DNA of 32,432 nucleotides from the IMG/VR virus record IMGVR_UViG_3300042566_000223, positions 1 through 32,432 of that record; one strand, given 5' to 3'. Positions within the stretch are counted from its first letter, which is position 1. Each line of letters opens with the position of its first letter. The notes beneath the pieces are model-generated. The model made no database searches. It worked only from the letters and a program-made list of their open reading frames with translations, and was not told where the DNA came from. This DNA comes from a virus. Of the stretch, positions 6,241-28,867 are shown piece after piece. The position numbers and the translations under genes were made by a program.

Positions 6241-8271
6241 TTATTTTTTCTTGATTACAACATGTTTCATCCACCCATGACGGCATTGGAATTCAATTGT
6301 TCCGTTGTTGTTCCAAAAACCCCCGGCGCGTTTGAATACGGAATACCCCAAACGTTCGGAAAGTTTTTGAATATCTTGTCGGCTGAACATTCTTGATTTG
6401 CTCAATCCAACCATTTTCACGCAAAACGGCCTTGATGTTTTCAATAGTTCCGGCCCGGCAACGCCATCGCGTTTTTCATAGGTGTACAAAACTTTAATTT
6501 CCGGCAATGTTTGCGCCGGTAATCTTTCCAATATCTTTCGAACGGGAATTCCGCCGACAATTTCGGCTTTGATTATTTCACGCTTCACCAGGTTTTCAAC
6601 GATATCATCAACAACGTTTGTATCATATTTCAACGCCTCGGCGATTTGCACATTCGATAAATCCGGTTGTTTCTTTAACAACTCCAATATTTTAGCCTCC
6701 CTTTCGGTAAATTCCGAAACCGCGGCGAATGACATTTTGAAATCATCATCATCCCCGGTGTAAACTTCGCTTTTCAAGATGCTAAAATTCGCCCTATCTT
6801 CCCCATATTCCGCAAACATATCCGCGATGAATTCATCGGAATCATCGTTGAATTGTTCATCGGTTGTCATTGGATCAGCATCAACGCCCAGGTATTGGTT
6901 GATTTGATCATTCGTAAACCCGTACGCGGACAATTGAATCGATGCCTGGCCTTTTGTTAACTTACCCTGGCTGAATAGCCGAACGATGCGCATGAGGTTT
7001 TGTTGTTGACGGCCGGACAATTTTATCAATGCTTCATTGCCCATTTGTTCGGGCATCACGTTATTAACGGCCGTTGGGATGCCGTATTTTGCCGGATCAA
7101 TGCCAAACTTTTCCAATATCCATTCCTTTGGTAATAACTCCTTAAATTGCACCGGATCAAGTTCCATGCCTACCGGTTCAACATCCTTTAATTTATATTC
7201 GGCATCAACACCGGCAACGCCGGAAAAATATCCGACAATTTCCTCGATTTGTTTTTGTTTGTGCGTTACATAGGTATTTTTGAAAATCTCATAGGCCGTT
7301 TTCAATTCGCTTGAATTTCCGAGCTTGCCTTCCTGTTGAATTCCAAAAAGCAGGGGATGCGTAATGTTATGGCCAGAGTAAATATTGCCCGTTATTAAAT
7401 TATCAACCGCGCCGAAATCTTCCTTTGTTAAATCCGATGCGCCCAAATCATCAATTGTCGGACGCTTTGACGGATCATTATTGAATCCAATCAAAACCTT
7501 TTTACCCTCGGCCCCGGTGGCGGCGTTTTCTAAACGCGCGGTTATCTTACGCTTTTTATCTTCATCGGGTTCACCATTGTAAAAGTTAATAAACTTCGAC
7601 GCGCTGAATCCGGTTTTTGCATTTGTCAACGTGTGCCTTGAAACCTCAATATCCGATTCAACCCAATTGCACGCGGCAACCCATGACGGCAACGCGTATG
7701 GGTTTTTTCCGCAACGATATTCTTTAAAATAAAATATTGATGTTTTATTGTTCGATGGATTGAATGCCGGGTATTCCGCCTCCGGTTGTTCCCATGTATT
7801 GTTCCATTTTTTACGATAGTAAAAACGCGTGTTATCTTCATTCGCCCGGATGCGATCATAGGACATGTGATAAATATTGAATCCCCCGGCAAGTTTTGGA
7901 ATCACCTGTAAATAAACGCCGCCGAAATTCTCAATGTCCAAACATGCCAATTTCATCAATTGATCCCATGATTGTTTTTCGTTGGCCTTTTGCAAAAACA
8001 CTTTTCCGGGTTCGGATTCGGTCATCAACCCGTTTCCCATGATGTAAACACATTTACCATTGATGATGGCGTTGTGTTTTGCCGATTTGTTGTATAGCCA
8101 CAACAAATATGTTGGATAATCGTTCCGATCACCAAACGGCACGAATTCAACGCCACGCTTTTTTTCCATTAATGGAATGCGTGAATCGGCGAATTCCATC
8201 GCGCCAACCTCAATCATTTCATCATTTGTATTTTTAACCGGCATAGCCTTTGTATATCGTTTGGGGTTCAT
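6241..8271 (-). CDS. Portal protein with extra C-terminal domains, 676 aa
   Basis: The first 430 or so residues look like a portal of the SPP1/HK97 group: an early FVPFGDRNDYPTYLLWLY segment, then NAIINGKCVYIMGNG, then HNITHPLLFGIQQEGKLGN. Portals form the dodecameric DNA channel at one capsid vertex. Beyond the portal body are a low-complexity acidic region, a winged-helix-like segment at 520-570 (EFTEREAKILELLKKQ, NVQIAEALKY), and a C-terminal domain at about 598-676 with TSRPFC and QCRHGW. That last domain resembles a module I know from minor head proteins. The gene overlaps the upstream 126-residue gene by 38 bases. The start ATG at 8271 is kept; ATG at 8244 is possible. Confidence 0.8.
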   Translation of the reverse strand: MNPKRYTKAMPVKNTNDEMIEVGAMEFADSRIPLMEKKRGVEFVPFGDRNDYPTYLLWLYNKSAKHNAIINGKCVYIMGNGLMTESEPGKVFLQKANEKQSWDQLMKLACLDIENFGGVYLQVIPKLAGGFNIYHMSYDRIRANEDNTRFYYRKKWNNTWEQPEAEYPAFNPSNNKTSIFYFKEYRCGKNPYALPSWVAACNWVESDIEVSRHTLTNAKTGFSASKFINFYNGEPDEDKKRKITARLENAATGAEGKKVLIGFNNDPSKRPTIDDLGASDLTKEDFGAVDNLITGNIYSGHNITHPLLFGIQQEGKLGNSSELKTAYEIFKNTYVTHKQKQIEEIVGYFSGVAGVDAEYKLKDVEPVGMELDPVQFKELLPKEWILEKFGIDPAKYGIPTAVNNVMPEQMGNEALIKLSGRQQQNLMRIVRLFSQGKLTKGQASIQLSAYGFTNDQINQYLGVDADPMTTDEQFNDDSDEFIADMFAEYGEDRANFSILKSEVYTGDDDDFKMSFAAVSEFTEREAKILELLKKQPDLSNVQIAEALKYDTNVVDDIVENLVKREIIKAEIVGGIPVRKILERLPAQTLPEIKVLYTYEKRDGVAGPELLKTSRPFCVKMVGLSKSRMFSRQDIQKLSERLGYSVFKRAGGFWNNNGTIEFQCRHGWMKHVVIKKK

Positions 8272-13825: not shown

Positions 13826-15855
13826 TAGTATATTCTATTTATGATTTTTAAAAGTTCAACATTGCAAACATCTTCGCTTGATGCGTTGAAATCTGTGATC
13901 TTGTTTAAACGATACAAAACGCCATCGATCCAAATCAACCGCGCAAAATCCAATTTATAAATGTCTTTGAATGCCAATTTCATGGTGCATGTCAATAACC
14001 GGGAATCCTTGTCGGTGATTTCGGCCATGTATGCACTCCAATAATCGTTAAATAAATTGTTAGGCGTGTAATTAGCAACTTCAAAAATCAATTCTTTTGG
14101 AGGCGAAAAACACAAATCAAATGTTGGCGTGATCGGATCGTTAATGTGGCCGGCGTATCCGTACGCGGTTTGACTACCAACGGATGATCCGGCGTTTAGA
14201 ATGTTCCAGGTTCCAAACCCCGTCATTTTCTTCGCCTGCATGATCCGAATAACCGAATCCATTTTATCCTCCGAATTATTCGAATTTGACAATTTGTAAA
14301 TTGATGGAAATATCTTATCCTTTCCGGTGAACTTTGTCAAAACCGAATTGGCGAATATCAATTCAACGGATGTTGTTTCCTTTGCGAATTCATATTCCGT
14401 ATCATAAATGAAATCGCCATACCCTTCATTGAATTTTTTACGATAATTTTCAGAATAGAAATCGTTATCTTGTTTGAACTTATAATTGTAATATCGTGAA
14501 TTCAATTCGGACATTGGTTTGATGCGCATCGGTTTTGCGCGATCAACCTTCAATGACCAATCAACCGATGTGGCATCTTCGTAAAACGTAACGAATGGTA
14601 GAACCTTTAATTTTTTATCGGTTTCGTAATCCTCGAAAACATAAAGGTTGAACATTTTACATATTGTCGAAAAGAATTCCCGTTGGAAAACGCCTTTCGG
14701 GATGGTGTCATTTACTACAATCGTATCACCATATCCAATCGAAACCTGGCCCGGTGTCAATAATTCAATTTGAAACGATGTTCCGGTATTGATTGAATAA
14801 TCACTAACATTAGCCTGTACTTCAACCGAAATTGCATCCCCCGGATTGATTGTGATATTGTTAACCGACAAATATAATAATGTTGCATATCCTGGCGTAA
14901 ATGAAACAATATCTGAATCCGTTGAAATTGTTGTTGAATTTTGTTTCAAATTTACTGTAAACGTATCCAACACCGGATCGATAGTATTAATAACGGCATC
15001 AATTTCTAATATTATGTTTGTTGTTATCGCAGATGCTCCGCCAAACGTGAATGTTGTATTTCCTAAACTTGCCGTAAAACTGCCTGCGGTTGAAACTGTA
15101 AAAGCAATTTTTTGAGCGGATGTGTATGTTGTTGTTGTTGGCGTTGCTTGAAAGGCCGTTGTATCATAGCGATACAATTCTTTTTGATTGTGTGGAATAA
15201 CTAACCGATTGAACAACGCCGATGATAACGCCGGGAAATCCCATGTGTACCCGGACGCGGTAATTGTTTTTTCCAATATTTCCCTAACATATAACGCCGG
15301 GCGGAATGTACTGAAATCAAAATCGGTTTTATTTGTGGATGCCTCGCCGTAATCAATTAGCGGAAAATAAACCCCGGCCCCGGCGATGGTGTTCCATGAT
15401 CCGGTAATATTGGTATAATTCCAGGTTGTATTGTATGCGCTAAAATCTAAATCCTCGATTTTCTTATTCGCCAACGCCGAAACAAAACCGCCCAGGGTTC
15501 CGAATACTGCGCATTCGTATTCAATGAATCCATCTTCAACAATTATTTCAAGGATACGGAAAACTCCTGTGAATACCTGCATGTTATCGGCAAAGATTAT
15601 CGCATCGGCCGAAACCGCCGGATTGAAATTCGCGCCAATGTTTGTTTGCGCCGGATTGTAATCGTTCCTGGCGTTGACGTTGAAAATATTTCCGAATATC
15701 TTATTATTGTTTTTCGTTCCCGGTAAAACAATCGTTTTGGAAAACGTTGTATTCTTTGCGCCAAAATCTTTGATGTCATCAATCGACATTGTTAGCAATG
15801 TGCTAAATGATTCGTTGATGTCAACGGCTTGTTTTTCTACGAACAATTGAATCAT
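13825..15855 (-). CDS. Large tail protein, baseplate or tail-tip component, 676 aa
   Basis: This long beta-rich protein begins MIQLFVEKQAVDINESFSTL and soon has DFGAKNTTFSKTIVLPGTK, a pattern I associate with Bacteroidota phage tail-tip proteins. Later blocks such as GVFQREFFSTICKMFNLYVF and LKVLPFVTFYEDATSVDWSL suggest hub-like domains. It sits between a second tail protein and the tape measure gene, overlapping the former by ATGA (15852-15855). No peptidoglycan hydrolase motif was seen. A baseplate hub or tail-associated role is inferred from order and size. Confidence 0.65.
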   Translation of the reverse strand: MIQLFVEKQAVDINESFSTLLTMSIDDIKDFGAKNTTFSKTIVLPGTKNNNKIFGNIFNVNARNDYNPAQTNIGANFNPAVSADAIIFADNMQVFTGVFRILEIIVEDGFIEYECAVFGTLGGFVSALANKKIEDLDFSAYNTTWNYTNITGSWNTIAGAGVYFPLIDYGEASTNKTDFDFSTFRPALYVREILEKTITASGYTWDFPALSSALFNRLVIPHNQKELYRYDTTAFQATPTTTTYTSAQKIAFTVSTAGSFTASLGNTTFTFGGASAITTNIILEIDAVINTIDPVLDTFTVNLKQNSTTISTDSDIVSFTPGYATLLYLSVNNITINPGDAISVEVQANVSDYSINTGTSFQIELLTPGQVSIGYGDTIVVNDTIPKGVFQREFFSTICKMFNLYVFEDYETDKKLKVLPFVTFYEDATSVDWSLKVDRAKPMRIKPMSELNSRYYNYKFKQDNDFYSENYRKKFNEGYGDFIYDTEYEFAKETTSVELIFANSVLTKFTGKDKIFPSIYKLSNSNNSEDKMDSVIRIMQAKKMTGFGTWNILNAGSSVGSQTAYGYAGHINDPITPTFDLCFSPPKELIFEVANYTPNNLFNDYWSAYMAEITDKDSRLLTCTMKLAFKDIYKLDFARLIWIDGVLYRLNKITDFNASSEDVCNVELLKIINRIY

Positions 15856-20918: not shown

Positions 20919-21143
20919 TTATAAAATTTCGGATGAAATATCCAATTTATTTTTGATGCCGTTTGCCGATAAAAGTTCGGACAACAACATTGATATTTTT
21001 ATCAAATCTTCGCCATTTTCCAATGTGATTTTTGATTTGATGTTTTGCCATTGGAATTGAATATAAAACGGATCTTGAATAACAAAAGTTGATCCTGGTT
21101 TCGTTTGTTCTATATTTTCAACATGTGTAATTATTTCACTCAT
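20919..21143 (-). CDS. 74-residue hypothetical protein
   Basis: It begins MSEIITHVENIEQTKPGSTF, has a beta-like FYIQFQWQNIKSKITLE segment and an end dominated by a helix (LIKISMLLSELLSANG). The ATG overlaps the stop of the sigma-like gene (ATGA at 21140-21143), so translation is probably coupled. No family is recognised. Confidence 0.6.
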   Translation of the reverse strand: MSEIITHVENIEQTKPGSTFVIQDPFYIQFQWQNIKSKITLENGEDLIKISMLLSELLSANGIKNKLDISSEIL

Positions 21144-21610
21144 ATATCCATGTGTTTTTTTATTTCGATCCTGGCTTTCTTTATCGTTTTACATATTCCC
21201 GAATATTCGATGCCGGTAATTGCCTCAACCTTTCGGTACGATCCATGCTCCGCATAAAGTTCCAACATTTTCGCATCATACCAATAAAGTTTTTGTAAAG
21301 GTACAACAATGATTTCAATCGGTTGTTCATCGGCAATATCGGAAAACGATTCTAAGGCCGTTTCCCGGCCTTGTAATTTCCGGAATGAACTTCGTTCCCA
21401 CCTAACCATATTAACGAGCATTTTAGCCACGTATGCAACGAATTTACCCCTTTGATACAAATCAAGGATGTCGGATTCCGGTTTCAACAATAATTCGGTG
21501 AACACATGTTGTTTTACATCATCGCGAATATCCGGCGGTTGAATGCGTGATAAGCATTCCCGTAGATCATCCGATCGGTATAATTCCTCGATTATTTGTT
21601 TTGCGTTCAC
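21140..21610 (-). CDS. Sigma-70-like RNA polymerase sigma factor, 156 aa
   Basis: Region 2-like text (HVFTELLLKPESDILDLYQR then GKFVAYVAKMLVNMVRWE) is followed by a linker and a region 4-like helix-turn-helix (EHGSYRKVEAITGIEYSGIC, KTIKKARIEIKK). I recognise the pattern from small sigma-like proteins of Bacteroidota phages. It would redirect host polymerase to phage promoters, most obviously the structural genes read next. The start is GTG at 21610; no ATG lies near the N-terminus. It is the first gene after the iteron-rich gap. Confidence 0.7.
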   Translation of the reverse strand: MNAKQIIEELYRSDDLRECLSRIQPPDIRDDVKQHVFTELLLKPESDILDLYQRGKFVAYVAKMLVNMVRWERSSFRKLQGRETALESFSDIADEQPIEIIVVPLQKLYWYDAKMLELYAEHGSYRKVEAITGIEYSGICKTIKKARIEIKKHMDI

Positions 21611-21642
21611 TTGATAAAATTAATTCTTTTTTTAATCCAAAT

Positions 21643-21892
21643 CCAAATACACCAAATACACCACCCAAAAATCAATATACATCGGCTGAAACATAGACCT
21701 GGCGCGGATATACACGAAAAACACCAAAAACACACACCAACTTTCTCTCTCTCTTTCTCTATCTCTTTATTTATATAGATAGATATAAATTATATATCTT
21801 ATAGAAATACAGTGTATATGGTGTATATCCTTTGTGGGCGCGGGTTTCAAATACACAAACGCGTGTATTTCGGTGTATTTGAACGTGTATTT
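21643..21892. repeat. Iteron cluster with AT-rich core, candidate replication origin
   Basis: Nine copies of the octamer AAATACAC / ATATACAC or its reverse GTGTATTT / GTGTATAT occur here: 21645, 21654, 21708, 21812, 21821, 21849, 21863, 21873 and 21885. Copies left of centre mostly point one way and those on the right the other. Two pairs are tandem with a 9-base period. A pyrimidine tract (21741-21768) and an AT-only stretch with TATATAGATAGATATAAATT (21771-21804) sit in the middle. It is directly downstream of the primase-helicase gene. The whole 296-base gap contains no convincing gene. Confidence 0.6.
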
Positions 21893-21906
21893 TCATATTA
21901 AACAAA

Positions 21907-24123
21907 TTACTTTTTACTATATTTACCATGTCCCAAACGATTGAACAATGATGCGAATTCCTTACTCCGGATTGATGTTTCGAATCTACGCGGTGGCAAG
22001 TTGATCCGCTTGCATGTTTCAACGGCATCCTTTTTTGTGAATTCATCCGGCAACGCCAGGTAAAGGTTGTTTAATTCCGTTGATAAACCGGTTTCCGCGT
22101 TTTCAAATAATTTGCTGATCAATCGGATTGTTGTTTCGGTGTAGTATTTATACAACCGGTTTGCAACGATTACGATATCTTTTGTGATCACCGGGTTTGT
22201 CGGGTTTTGTAGTATTGCCACAACCTGGGTAAGCCTGGCAACATAATTCGACATCTTGGCATGCGTACCCAAAATAAAACCATCTAAACGATTGGTAATC
22301 CGTTCGTTGGCTTCGGTTAATTGAAGTTTATGATTATGTCGGTAAAGTTCAACCGCTTCATCCGTAATGGCGATTTTTATAGGTTGAATTTCCCCGGTGT
22401 TGAACCGCCGCGCCTGGTCGAACAATTTTCCCAAAATGTTTGTCCAATCGGAATGGATTTCCCGGCGTTTACTAAATGGATCGGATTCGATGTTTAGTAA
22501 TTTATAATCCGATTCGCACATCAAAAAACGGGATGCGAATCCGGAATAGATTTTATCCTTTGAAAAAATTTTGTGTAGGCGTTCCGTTTGCGTTCCCATC
22601 AAAAGATTGATGTTCATGTTTTTTACAACACGTTCATTTTCCCGGTTGGCCCTGGATTGAACGTAACGGCCCCCGTTGAAAGCCTGCGTCATAAACGAAA
22701 TTGAATTGTTGTCATTCTTATAAGCCGCGGCGTTCATGATATCCTCGGCTTCATCAATGTATATTCCAATCCCGGATGGTTGATCCATACAAAGGGCGAT
22801 ATATCCCTCGGTTGTTCCATCCTTTAAAAATGGAATGATGCGCTTTGGTTTGGGTTCAAAAAAATGTTCTTTTGATTTCATGGCCTTTGCTTTGCGCGCC
22901 TCCCATTGTTTTACCGCTTCCTCATGGTTTGCGTCCATTTCATCCAGGATCGGTTTCATCGGGTTTTGGCACATCGTTTCATAGGCCGGTGATTTACCAA
23001 CGGACATGGGCGCAACAAGGAAACAAAACAAAATGTTTTTTGCTCCGCCGATGTCGGATGTGTACGATGAGCCGGCAAGGGATGATATTGTCCACAACCC
23101 GGCGGTTGCCAAAAATTCCGGCGACATGGAACGTTCGTTGGCAACCTCGAACAATGATTCGCGGATGTGTTCCGGGAATATTTCAAACGGAAATTTTATT
23201 TCAACATTTTGTTTTATTCCGATATAATTCAAAACGGCGTTCCAATCGCGCTTTAAATGATAGTACAAAATAAATGATGGCGGCAATGACCATATTTCAA
23301 AATCATCTTTGGTATGCCAATTTGGAAAATTTAACATGGACGCGGAAAATATCAAAACCCGTTTTGATCTTGGGTAAACCTTTGCGGATATTCCATTCGA
23401 TTCCGATCCTTTGCGCCGGTATGCGATGAACCTATCTTTTTTACTATATCGGAAATTTTTGATGGGAATCAAATCGATTGTTTCCAAAAGGATTTCGAAT
23501 GATTCATCCGATATTTCATTATCATATTTGGCCAATTCCGTTTCGAATCCTTTGGGATAATTAACGGCTTTTTGATTCGGATCAAAATCCGGTTGATATT
23601 CATTGAAATATTGCGATACACCAATCAAATAATTATATTCATTATCCGTCAAAAATTCAACATCATTCATCGATTGATGAACTTCAACATAGTTAGGCGT
23701 TGGATATGTGTATATCAACGGGCCGTTGCAATACAATGCGATTACTTCGCGTCCTTCATTGGATTGCGCCAGGTTCATTTTTTTTGGCAATTTATCATAT
23801 CTTAAAAAGACATGATATCCATTGCTCCGCGTTCGTTCAATGAATAGTTTTCCCAATAAATCCGGCGCATCGGCGTTCACCATTTGCATCCATTTATCGA
23901 AAATGGTTTTGTCCGATGTGTTTTTCAAATCAAAATCAAGGGCCGCCCATCCGTTACCGGTTACGATTTGCAACGCGTTATCCGTTGGCAACAATTCAAA
24001 CTTTGTTTCCGGATTGCTCCAACCTTCCTTTTGATATTTCGGAACATTGTTTTCAATATCCCATTGGAACGGAATCGCGCGCAATCCTAAATCCAGGTAA
24101 TCGTTGTAAATGTGTTTTAGCAT
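21907..24123 (-). CDS. Primase-helicase (PrimPol-like plus DUF3987-like ATPase), 738 aa
   Basis: The N-terminal domain has the bifunctional primase-polymerase pattern: WAALDFDLKN (Asp63, Asp65) and ERTRSNGYHVFLRY (His104). The second half has an ATPase with a Walker A-like APMSVGKSP (371-379) and Walker B GIYIDEAEDIM (453-463), resembling the DUF3987 helicase-like group. The C-terminus is a small helical, perhaps winged-helix domain (EFTKKDAVETCKRINLPPRR). It would prime and unwind phage DNA. Its ATG overlaps the stop of the 68-residue gene, and the candidate origin lies just downstream. Confidence 0.8.
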   Translation of the reverse strand: MLKHIYNDYLDLGLRAIPFQWDIENNVPKYQKEGWSNPETKFELLPTDNALQIVTGNGWAALDFDLKNTSDKTIFDKWMQMVNADAPDLLGKLFIERTRSNGYHVFLRYDKLPKKMNLAQSNEGREVIALYCNGPLIYTYPTPNYVEVHQSMNDVEFLTDNEYNYLIGVSQYFNEYQPDFDPNQKAVNYPKGFETELAKYDNEISDESFEILLETIDLIPIKNFRYSKKDRFIAYRRKGSESNGISAKVYPRSKRVLIFSASMLNFPNWHTKDDFEIWSLPPSFILYYHLKRDWNAVLNYIGIKQNVEIKFPFEIFPEHIRESLFEVANERSMSPEFLATAGLWTISSLAGSSYTSDIGGAKNILFCFLVAPMSVGKSPAYETMCQNPMKPILDEMDANHEEAVKQWEARKAKAMKSKEHFFEPKPKRIIPFLKDGTTEGYIALCMDQPSGIGIYIDEAEDIMNAAAYKNDNNSISFMTQAFNGGRYVQSRANRENERVVKNMNINLLMGTQTERLHKIFSKDKIYSGFASRFLMCESDYKLLNIESDPFSKRREIHSDWTNILGKLFDQARRFNTGEIQPIKIAITDEAVELYRHNHKLQLTEANERITNRLDGFILGTHAKMSNYVARLTQVVAILQNPTNPVITKDIVIVANRLYKYYTETTIRLISKLFENAETGLSTELNNLYLALPDEFTKKDAVETCKRINLPPRRFETSIRSKEFASLFNRLGHGKYSKK

Positions 24124-24416: not shown

Positions 24417-24887
24417 CTACAAACTTACGATTTTATCATATAACTCAAAAAATTGTTCCGGTGTTCCGATGAATTCATAAATGCCACCGGCTTTGCGTTC
24501 CCGGATTTGTTCCGCTAATTGATCCGGTCGCGGTTTGTCCCGGCCTACTTTAATTTCAATTTGAACCGCTTTTCCAAAAATTGTACAGGAAATATCGGCA
24601 CTGCCTTTCCGCGTTGTTGATGGTAGCCACTTTTTAACGCCTATTTTTGCCCCGGATGGTTGTTTCTCAACGCCATCTATCAACCGCCCCATTACGTTAA
24701 TCCTGGTGGCTCGGTGGCCTTTCCATGATAGGAAATTACAGATGTATGATGTGAGGCCGTTTGCCGTATTAAACGGCGGAACCTTTGGTTCTAAATAATA
24801 CCCGTCTTTGTATGCCGATGGATATTGAATCTTAAACCATTCCAGGTGCGCGGACATGTAACGGGGGTGATCAGTTTTTTTTGCCAT
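24417..24887 (-). CDS. VRR-NUC-like / PD-(D/E)XK nuclease, 156 aa
   Basis: The nuclease core is KGSADISCTIFGKAVQIEIK (94-113): Asp98, then Glu111-x-Lys113, with Gln123 in the following helix. This fits VRR-NUC-type phage nucleases that act on branched DNA. ATG at 24887 (MAKKTDHPRYMSAHL) is preferred over an upstream frame that would deeply overlap the previous gene; it still overlaps by 17 bases. The last codons contain a promoter (24420-24449) for the small RNA. A Holliday-junction or mismatch role would suit the recombination block. Confidence 0.7.
   Translation of the reverse strand: MAKKTDHPRYMSAHLEWFKIQYPSAYKDGYYLEPKVPPFNTANGLTSYICNFLSWKGHRATRINVMGRLIDGVEKQPSGAKIGVKKWLPSTTRKGSADISCTIFGKAVQIEIKVGRDKPRPDQLAEQIRERKAGGIYEFIGTPEQFFELYDKIVSL
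24420..24449 (-). promoter_or_regulatory. Bacteroidota-type promoter for the small RNA
   Basis: On the minus strand TTTG (24446-24449), exactly 18 bases, then TAAGTTTG (24420-24427), matching TTTG / TAnnTTTG. It overlaps the end of the nuclease gene and the expected start site falls at the base of the first RNA hairpin. Confidence 0.6.
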
Positions 24888-25083
24888 AGTATTCGTTGTA
24901 AAATTGTTCAGCCATAAATAAAGCATCTGCTTTTTCCATGTCGGTTGTGCCGTTCCAATATGCATTTTTTATCTGCTCTTTCTCCATTGCTTTTGCTTGT
25001 TTCCATAAATCACGAATTGATATATCCATATCATGTTTTTGCCATTCGCTTTGCAACCATTCAACTGCCGTTTGTTGTGCCAT
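24871..25083 (-). CDS. 70-residue hypothetical protein of the early block
   Basis: It starts MAQQTAVEWLQSEWQKHD and contains LWKQAKAMEKEQIKNAYWNG, a pattern that recurs in small, uncharacterised Bacteroidota phage proteins. It is helical and charged, ending YNEYYGKKN. No function is known to me. The stop overlaps the start of the nuclease gene; three bases separate it from the membrane protein gene upstream. Confidence 0.75.
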   Translation of the reverse strand: MAQQTAVEWLQSEWQKHDMDISIRDLWKQAKAMEKEQIKNAYWNGTTDMEKADALFMAEQFYNEYYGKKN

Positions 25084-25360: not shown

Positions 25361-25633
25361 TCAGAATGGTAGCGAATCAATCTCAACTTGCGCCGGCGCA
25401 TCCGGTTGCCTCAATTCGGATTTCTTAAAATTACCGATGTAGGTTTTCTTTTCCTTTGCTTCGCGTTGTTCCTTGCTTTGTCGCACCGAAACGGAACCGA
25501 TGTTTCCGTATTGGTCAACGTTTTCATTGATCCAAATGTCGATGTTCAAATACAGTTTGCCATTTTTTGCCTGCGTTAAATTTCCTTTTGGGATGTCCGA
25601 AACGCAAATCGAACCATTGAATAATTGATTCAT
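25361..25633 (-). CDS. SSB-like protein, 90 aa
   Basis: A short beta-rich protein (NGSICVSDIPKGNLTQAKNG, KLYLNIDIWINENVDQYGN) whose C-terminus is EIDSLPF, closely resembling the acidic Asp-x-x-Pro-Phe tip by which bacterial SSB recruits partners. Length is less than a full OB-fold SSB, about one compact barrel. Similar proteins occur next to recombination genes in Bacteroidota phages. A ssDNA-binding role is inferred from the tail and from neighbouring exonuclease, annealing and primase genes. Confidence 0.55.
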   Translation of the reverse strand: MNQLFNGSICVSDIPKGNLTQAKNGKLYLNIDIWINENVDQYGNIGSVSVRQSKEQREAKEKKTYIGNFKKSELRQPDAPAQVEIDSLPF

Positions 25634-28759: not shown

Positions 28760-28781
28760 GTGTGTATTTTTTGATTTGATG

Positions 28782-28789
28782 CAAATATA
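28782..28789 (-). promoter_or_regulatory. Candidate promoter (-7 element) for the early leftward operon
   Basis: TATATTTG on the minus strand matches TAnnTTTG and lies 22 bases before the ATG at 28759. The region 18-21 bases upstream is T-rich but has no clear TTTG, so this is a weaker match than the other promoters. Confidence 0.5.
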
Positions 28790-28837
28790 GGGAATATTTG
28801 ATATAAAAAATAAAATAAAAAATATTTTTAAAAATGT

Positions 28838-28867
28838 TTTGTAATATGGTTTTTTAGTTTATCTTTG
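28838..28867 (+). promoter_or_regulatory. Bacteroidota-type promoter for the plus-strand gene run
   Basis: TTTG (28838-28841), exactly 18 bases, then TATCTTTG (28860-28867). The ATG of the first plus-strand gene is 25 bases further on. The -7 element is identical to those at 18598 and 18945, but the palindromic spacer is absent. Confidence 0.75.

Follow-up and report, generated by a model that had tools for sequence, protein, structure and literature searches.

What purpose is served by the repeat-filled gap that separates two genes in the replication region of this viral DNA? In the window (the whole stretch analysed, 32,432 nucleotides), an intergenic element of 296 bp (21611..21906, not assigned to a strand) lies between a GTG-initiated ORF (21140-21610) and the gene for a 738-aa primase-helicase (21907..24123, minus strand), and the element is conserved in relatives. 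The element was considered a candidate origin in a preliminary description, which placed it between primase-helicase and sigma-like genes. Six exact copies of AAATACAC/GTGTATTT were located in the gap, starting at 21645, 21654 and 21849 on the plus strand and at 21863, 21873 and 21885 on the minus strand, and seven further copies with at most one mismatch brought the total to 13. By comparison, no more than 4 such sites occurred in any of 1000 dinucleotide-preserving shuffles, and a motif-free control based on the best octamer of any kind matched the array density in 0 of 300 shuffles, which confirmed that the iteron array is real and beyond chance. The nine copies counted earlier proved correct for the shared core TACAC, and the inverted pair at 21849-21870 was present against a chance expectation of 0; the 9-base tandem period held at 21645/21654 and 21812/21821 but not at 21863/21873/21885, where the spacings are 10 and 12. 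The whole remaining window contains a single exact iteron, a copy of GTGTATTT at 28762 in a divergent intergenic region, where it adjoins a stretch (~28783-28845) that ranks second in the window for low duplex stability; 28762-28845 may hold an operator or a promoter.

The sites are arranged in two opposed arms. On the side far from the primase gene, an outer pair (21645..21662, plus strand) consists of two copies of AAATACACC with a 9-bp period, which read GGTGTATTT on the primase-sense strand, and is followed by inner iterons (21708..21733, plus strand) comprising ATATACAC at 21708 and AAAAACAC at 21717 and 21726, all with at most one mismatch. On the primase side, an inner pair (21812..21828, minus strand; two copies of GTGTATAT, 9-bp period) precedes a lone reversed site in the outer arm (21849..21856, plus strand), which is an exact match with a counterpart in most of the representative arrays, and the outer iterons (21863..21892, minus strand) formed by GTGTATTT at 21863, 21873 and 21885. 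Read along the primase-sense strand, the order is outer iterons (one reversed), spacer, two inner iterons and AT-rich core, and then the mirror side with inner iterons, spacer and two outer iterons, all oppositely oriented. The core itself (21759..21811, without strand), a candidate DNA unwinding element, is the least stable duplex of the 32.4-kb window, ranking 1/32392 for 40-bp and 1/32372 for 60-bp windows, the best of which start at ~21769 and ~21759, respectively. The stretch previously called pure AT is AT-rich (36 of the bases in the best 40) but not pure, and the pyrimidine tract described beside it is present in the window but not retained in relatives. Neither GC skew nor AT skew across the window gave an origin signal at the array: GC skew, which had been put forward as a check, left the array unmarked, with the detrended cumulative minimum at 13951 and nearly all genes on one strand.

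With regard to the surrounding genome, matches to a portal, to the large and small terminase subunits and to an endolysin were detected, and because of these matches the possibility that the window is itself a phage-inducible chromosomal island (PICI) was excluded. No integrase was found among the window ORFs scanned, which were a subset of all ORFs. The 156-aa product of the GTG ORF (minus strand) had no Pfam or PHROG match, leaving its earlier designation as sigma-like, and its candidacy as a sigma factor, unsupported. The replication module further includes an endonuclease-like ORF (24417..24965, minus strand; phrog_93 endonuclease, E 3.6e-7) and the ORF that the preliminary description labelled SSB-like (25361..25633, minus strand), which falls in phrog_24909, a group of unknown function. 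In the portal ORF (6241-8271), a C-terminal stretch (residues 527-568) matches a winged helix-turn-helix family, which is unusual for a portal protein. The window showed no exact terminal repeat of at least 10 bases, and ORFs continue past both record ends at positions 1 and 32432. A scan of bacterial genomes returned one 70-residue match on a contig of a Sphingobacteriales MAG, insufficient to assign a host.

Profile searches retrieved relatives with primase identities from 99% down to ~27%, which enabled an analysis of the place and plan of the array. Measured from the point where the primase match ends, the best repeated octamer fell between -100 and +1800 in 66 of 73 loci; the remaining seven comprise four ties, two loci with fewer than 300 bases downstream (L042 and L055) and one (L046) whose contig ends inside an insert ahead of the array. 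These 73 loci are what is left of 81 after setting aside eight (L068, L072, L074, L077, L078 and L080-L082) in which the match stops short of the primase C-terminus. A later search kept 80 of 139 relatives, and in all 20 of its contigs that were new to the analysis, near copies included (L113/L114, L133/L134, L145/L146 and L150-L152), the densest repeat cluster was located at -43 to +1028 from the primase end. Even in three unannotated human-gut records reached through tblastn of annotated phages (~22% identity), opposed repeats directly follow the matched gene (3/3), here without a long AT core. In a chosen set of 32 representative arrays, 89 forward and 31 reverse exact sites were counted to the left of the core, against 98 reverse and 7 forward to its right, and in 25 of the 32, the window included, an exact site of reversed orientation recurs 69-92 bases to the left (-69 to -92). 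The iteron sequence itself is specific to groups of phages, with classes (assigned by eye before counting) such as TACAC, GTACACA, TTTACACC, TTGCACC, TAGTTACT, AATTGC, ATTCGCA, ATTCTCA, TTTGCA, AAGTTCA, AGTAACA and others. Conservation holds for the place and for the layout of opposed iterons around an AT core, but not for the octamer, which switches between phages. Unrelated inserts of ~700-900 bases separate the primase from an intact array in L016 (7207-7929), L038, L051 and L052, and the ORF in the L016 insert resembles a PAPS reductase, as judged by eye.

The sequence and predicted structure of the adjoining gene product were examined next to the array. The primase-helicase matched PF13148 (E 3.3e-33) and helicase/primase entries of PHROG, and its AlphaFold model and fold matches predict a plan consisting of a primase-polymerase-like N-terminus, a DUF3987/MCM-like AAA+ helicase (~314-678) and a C-terminal winged helix. 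The model had a pLDDT of 52 when built with 9 close sequences and a mean pLDDT of 86.5 when rerun with 40 family members. For the N-terminal part, the pRN1 primase-polymerase gave the closest structural resemblance (Foldseek E 2.7e-5, 8.0e-5 and 1.5e-4), and the motifs LDFDLKN and GYH, which we take to be those of archaeo-eukaryotic primase-polymerases, were invariant or nearly so in the primase family; the predicted N-terminus thus has the archaeo-eukaryotic primase-polymerase (AEP) fold. Residues 314-678 of the model matched MCM helicases (VIA Z 17.2, rmsd 3.9, 269 aligned residues, 12% identity), so that this predicted part has the MCM AAA+ fold, a shared fold that shows no function. Since Pfam returned DUF3987 only and searches of PDB sequences no MCM chain, leaving the protein without a sequence match to a curated MCM family, we classify it as MCM-like in fold and not as an MCM family member; in the same PDB sequence searches the primase query gave nothing and the primase alignment only weak unrelated matches. 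At the C-terminus, residues 682-738 (21910..22080, minus strand) follow the order helix, strand, helix, helix, hairpin in the predicted model of the whole protein, which fits a winged helix and, together with covariation, makes this the candidate iteron-reading domain; its predicted recognition helix (codons 713-717; 21973..21987, minus strand), placed by AlphaFold and covariation, contains residues 715 and 716. The fold searches, whose queries were other than this domain by itself, listed no P4 origin-binding domain, a result without weight for or against the assignment. A 2018 survey (PMC5862659) predicted a helicase role for DUF3987 and suggested that primases of this kind may read the origin through their C-terminal winged helix.

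Which protein reads the iterons could be approached through near-identical phages that differ in iteron class. In a first switch, 17 phages with primases ~95-98% identical fall into two iteron classes, TGCGAATTTG in 6 and TGAGAATTTG in 11. After mapping all of them to L040, the polymorphic nucleotide columns that separate the classes amounted to 0/549 in the primase body, 4/48 at the primase 3' end, 0/28 in the gap and 28/85 in the array, as well as 5/449 in the upstream genes, the last at the lowest allowed coverage and partly three-allelic. At the protein level, residues 707, 716 and 718 were the only class separators, and all three lie in the predicted C-terminal winged helix. Among the 12376 splits of 17 into 6 and 11, only the true one had at least 4 separating primase nucleotide columns, and it alone had 3 separating residues. 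A second switch, between 11 TTTGCA and 3 AAGTTCA phages, exhibited the same trend, with 1/559 separating columns in codons 1-690, 23/57 in codons 691-end and 44/114 in the array (the gap offered 0 testable columns), the true split ranking first of 364. The permutation counts of both switches ignore kinship, and metagenome contigs are non-independent samples. Within the second switch, the primases of L052 and L064 share 98.3% identity across residues 1-690 but 73.9% across residues 691-736. In three near pairs with different iterons (L025/L027, L044/L066 and L040/L048), other primase windows diverge as much as the C-terminus or more.

The correspondence could be followed to single positions. 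In the TGNNNNTTTG clade, residue 716 and iteron base 3 correspond in 39/39 phages, D being paired with C and N with A; residue 716 was chosen on the 17 phages of the first switch, so the independent test consists of the other 22, all of which agree, counting L015 as coded (its array runs off the contig, T (5) is the most frequent base at position 3, ahead of C (4), and the position was coded as not-A). Phylogenetically independent pairs, the comparison that respects kinship, followed the rule in 6/6 cases (sign test p 0.031). Across 346 variable primase columns, base 3 was separated by 716 alone, base 4 by columns 399, 693, 701 and 715, base 5 by 712 and 715, and base 6 by 715. Later-fetched phages with GAACTTT iterons (L113, L115 and L122, the first two near relatives) carry K715-N716, as do GAACTTT phages of the TGNNNNTTTG clade. 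The broader pairing of K715 with ACTTT, compared on iteron strings entered by eye, has exceptions in L149 (K715 without ACTTT), L129 (ACTTT without K715) and L075 (a gap in the column). Asparagine-adenine is a familiar protein-DNA contact and aspartate-cytosine a plausible one, which makes the pairing of 716 with base 3 chemically sensible.

These patterns suggest that the C-terminal winged helix of the same primase-helicase reads the iterons. The readers proposed earlier, namely the primase N-terminal domain or the SSB-like protein, are unsupported because the variation that tracks the iterons sits in that C-terminal helix. For the window itself, which has T716, E715 and the iteron GGTGTATTT, the reader is extrapolated from relatives with ~50-54% primase identity, the residue-base code having been derived from the TGNNNNTTTG clade. 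It could be argued that the C-terminus and the array are co-inherited as mere neighbours with no functional contact, given that they lie within a few hundred bases of each other in many loci and that recombination shuffles this stretch: on a tree of residues 1-690, built without the distant loci L075, L076 and L079, 18 iteron-class changes were counted where 12 suffice, indicating that iteron class has been reshuffled among backgrounds. Plain linkage is nevertheless argued against by the DNA lying between the two, which is uncoupled from iteron class in all 28 testable columns of the first switch and in other relatives holds inserts of very different length. The recurrence of the 716-base 3 pairing in separate lineages, as in the six independent pairs, and the K715-N716 that L113, L115 and L122 share with other GAACTTT-type phages point in the same direction. 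Linkage may account for the pattern in part, but neighbourhood with no functional contact we regard as quite unlikely.

As the terminase genes lie directly beyond it, the array could alternatively be a packaging (pac/cos) site to which the small terminase binds, and terminase-like ORFs, recognised by eye, do follow shortly after the array in L016, L017 and L010. The right flank bearing the terminase genes was, however, blind to iteron class, with 0/965 separating polymorphic columns in the first switch and 0/237 in the second, so that the site did not covary with the terminase genes and is tied to the primase C-terminus instead. Moreover, the downstream neighbour gene varies among relatives that retain the array, and phages with the same iterons have different next genes; a packaging function is accordingly very improbable. 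The same variability argues against a promoter element tied to a single gene and thereby bears on another reading, in which the array would be no origin but an operator or promoter for the late genes downstream. What recommends that reading is a TAnnTTTG box, which we take to be the Bacteroidota -7 promoter element, found within 90 nt to the right of the last iteron in 29/38 arrays (~5% expected), with the TTG 21 bases upstream of the box falling inside the last iteron in many arrays (e.g., L040 and L037). The box is absent from the window itself, though, and the reader maps to the primase-helicase and not to a repressor, which leaves a purely regulatory array quite unlikely. A double role of the array, as origin and as regulatory element, is possible, and the position of the TTG inside the last iteron implies that, in some members of the family, binding at the outer arm could at the same time restrain the late genes.

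Sites resembling those of IHF, identified by match to its consensus, flank the core in one clade, where 27/48 arrays had a match and 14 had matches on both sides (0.068 expected per array). In these TGNNNNTTTG-clade arrays (e.g., L040 ~7400-7620) the sites are oppositely oriented, ~65-76 bases left and 80-85 bases right of the AT core. None is present in the window, and for that reason they were left out of its explanation.

In phage P4, the alpha protein binds repeats at the origin and unites a primase, a helicase and a C-terminal winged helix in a single chain, a plan shared by the window's initiator as predicted. The P4 primase is of the Toprim type, according to PMC4234260, whereas the primase part found here resembles that of pRN1, of archaeo-eukaryotic type. 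The same paper describes pRN1 ORF904 as likewise a primase-polymerase/helicase, whose gene is directly followed by a non-coding region that is essential; pRN1 carries a stem-loop, its authors having found no typical AT-rich iteron origin. The closest organisation is that of the PICI/SaPI origins, which, as described in PMC6092414 and PMC7581432, are likewise directly 3' of the primase/initiator gene, have two iteron sets flanking an AT-rich region and are recognised by the C-terminal domain of the initiator helicase, as proposed here; the window's array shares the first two features, lying directly 3' of the initiator gene with two iteron sets around an AT-rich region. Unlike those islands, the window genome has a portal, terminase and endolysin, and its initiator is of the primase-polymerase/DUF3987 type. 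Recognition of downstream repeats by C-terminal domains is also described for SaPI Rep and SCCmec Cch2 in PMC7581432, where Cch2 is a helicase of self-loading type whose isolated C-terminal domain binds direct repeats immediately downstream of its gene, but with three iterons only, a separate primase and a mobile cassette as its setting. That an initiator's DNA-binding domain and the origin iterons can be exchanged together is already known from the PLE satellites of Vibrio (RepA/ori), for which PMC8263062 proposes an origin-directed nuclease of phage ICP1 as a driver; there the initiator is of the RepA_N family, the iterons are ~30 bp, the carriers are satellites, and the swap, as described in that paper, is not residue-resolved.

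Taken together, the sequence comparisons support an array of conserved layout that keeps a constant position 3' of the gene and is linked through its iterons to the C-terminal helix; the array is very probably the start of phage genome copying, with origin firing and binding inferred from these sequence patterns. The earlier proposal of an origin beside the primase is hence well supported by conservation, layout and AT core, but not in its choice of readers. We consider it highly likely that the element serves a tailed phage as a two-armed iteron origin, and that the PrimPol/MCM-like AAA+/winged-helix initiator encoded by this phage opens it, binding to both arms. In this proposed scheme, the C-terminal winged helices would dock on both opposed iteron arms, and the AAA+ rings, presumably two hexamers, would assemble head to head over the AT core, melt it and depart in opposite directions, while the primase domains would lay the first primers on both strands, giving two forks and a bidirectional start.

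In the literature consulted, mostly outside subscription journals, we found no description of such origins in DUF3987 phages nor of the pairing of residue 716 with base 3. The two-armed iteron organisation was regarded as one that no other known replicon has besides PICI/SaPI, according to PMC6092414, and an arrangement called unique to satellite islands is now placed in full-phage-like genomes, with a likely reader named and a residue-level prediction, D716N with C3A. More tentatively, and as an idea we rate somewhat below even chances, DUF3987 phages may represent a large family that uses archaeo-eukaryotic-style initiators on two-armed origins, in which whole arrays of ~10 iterons would switch, along with a small number of residues in the reading helix, between near-identical phages, acting as replicon types that bar competitors, satellites or origin-cutting nucleases, and in which a residue-base code (D716/C3, N716/A3 and K715/ACTTT) could be read from nature. 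If the proposed origin and its reader hold true, the origins of many uncultured phages would be findable and typable by sequence, and the selection behind the switching of origin identity would be open to study.
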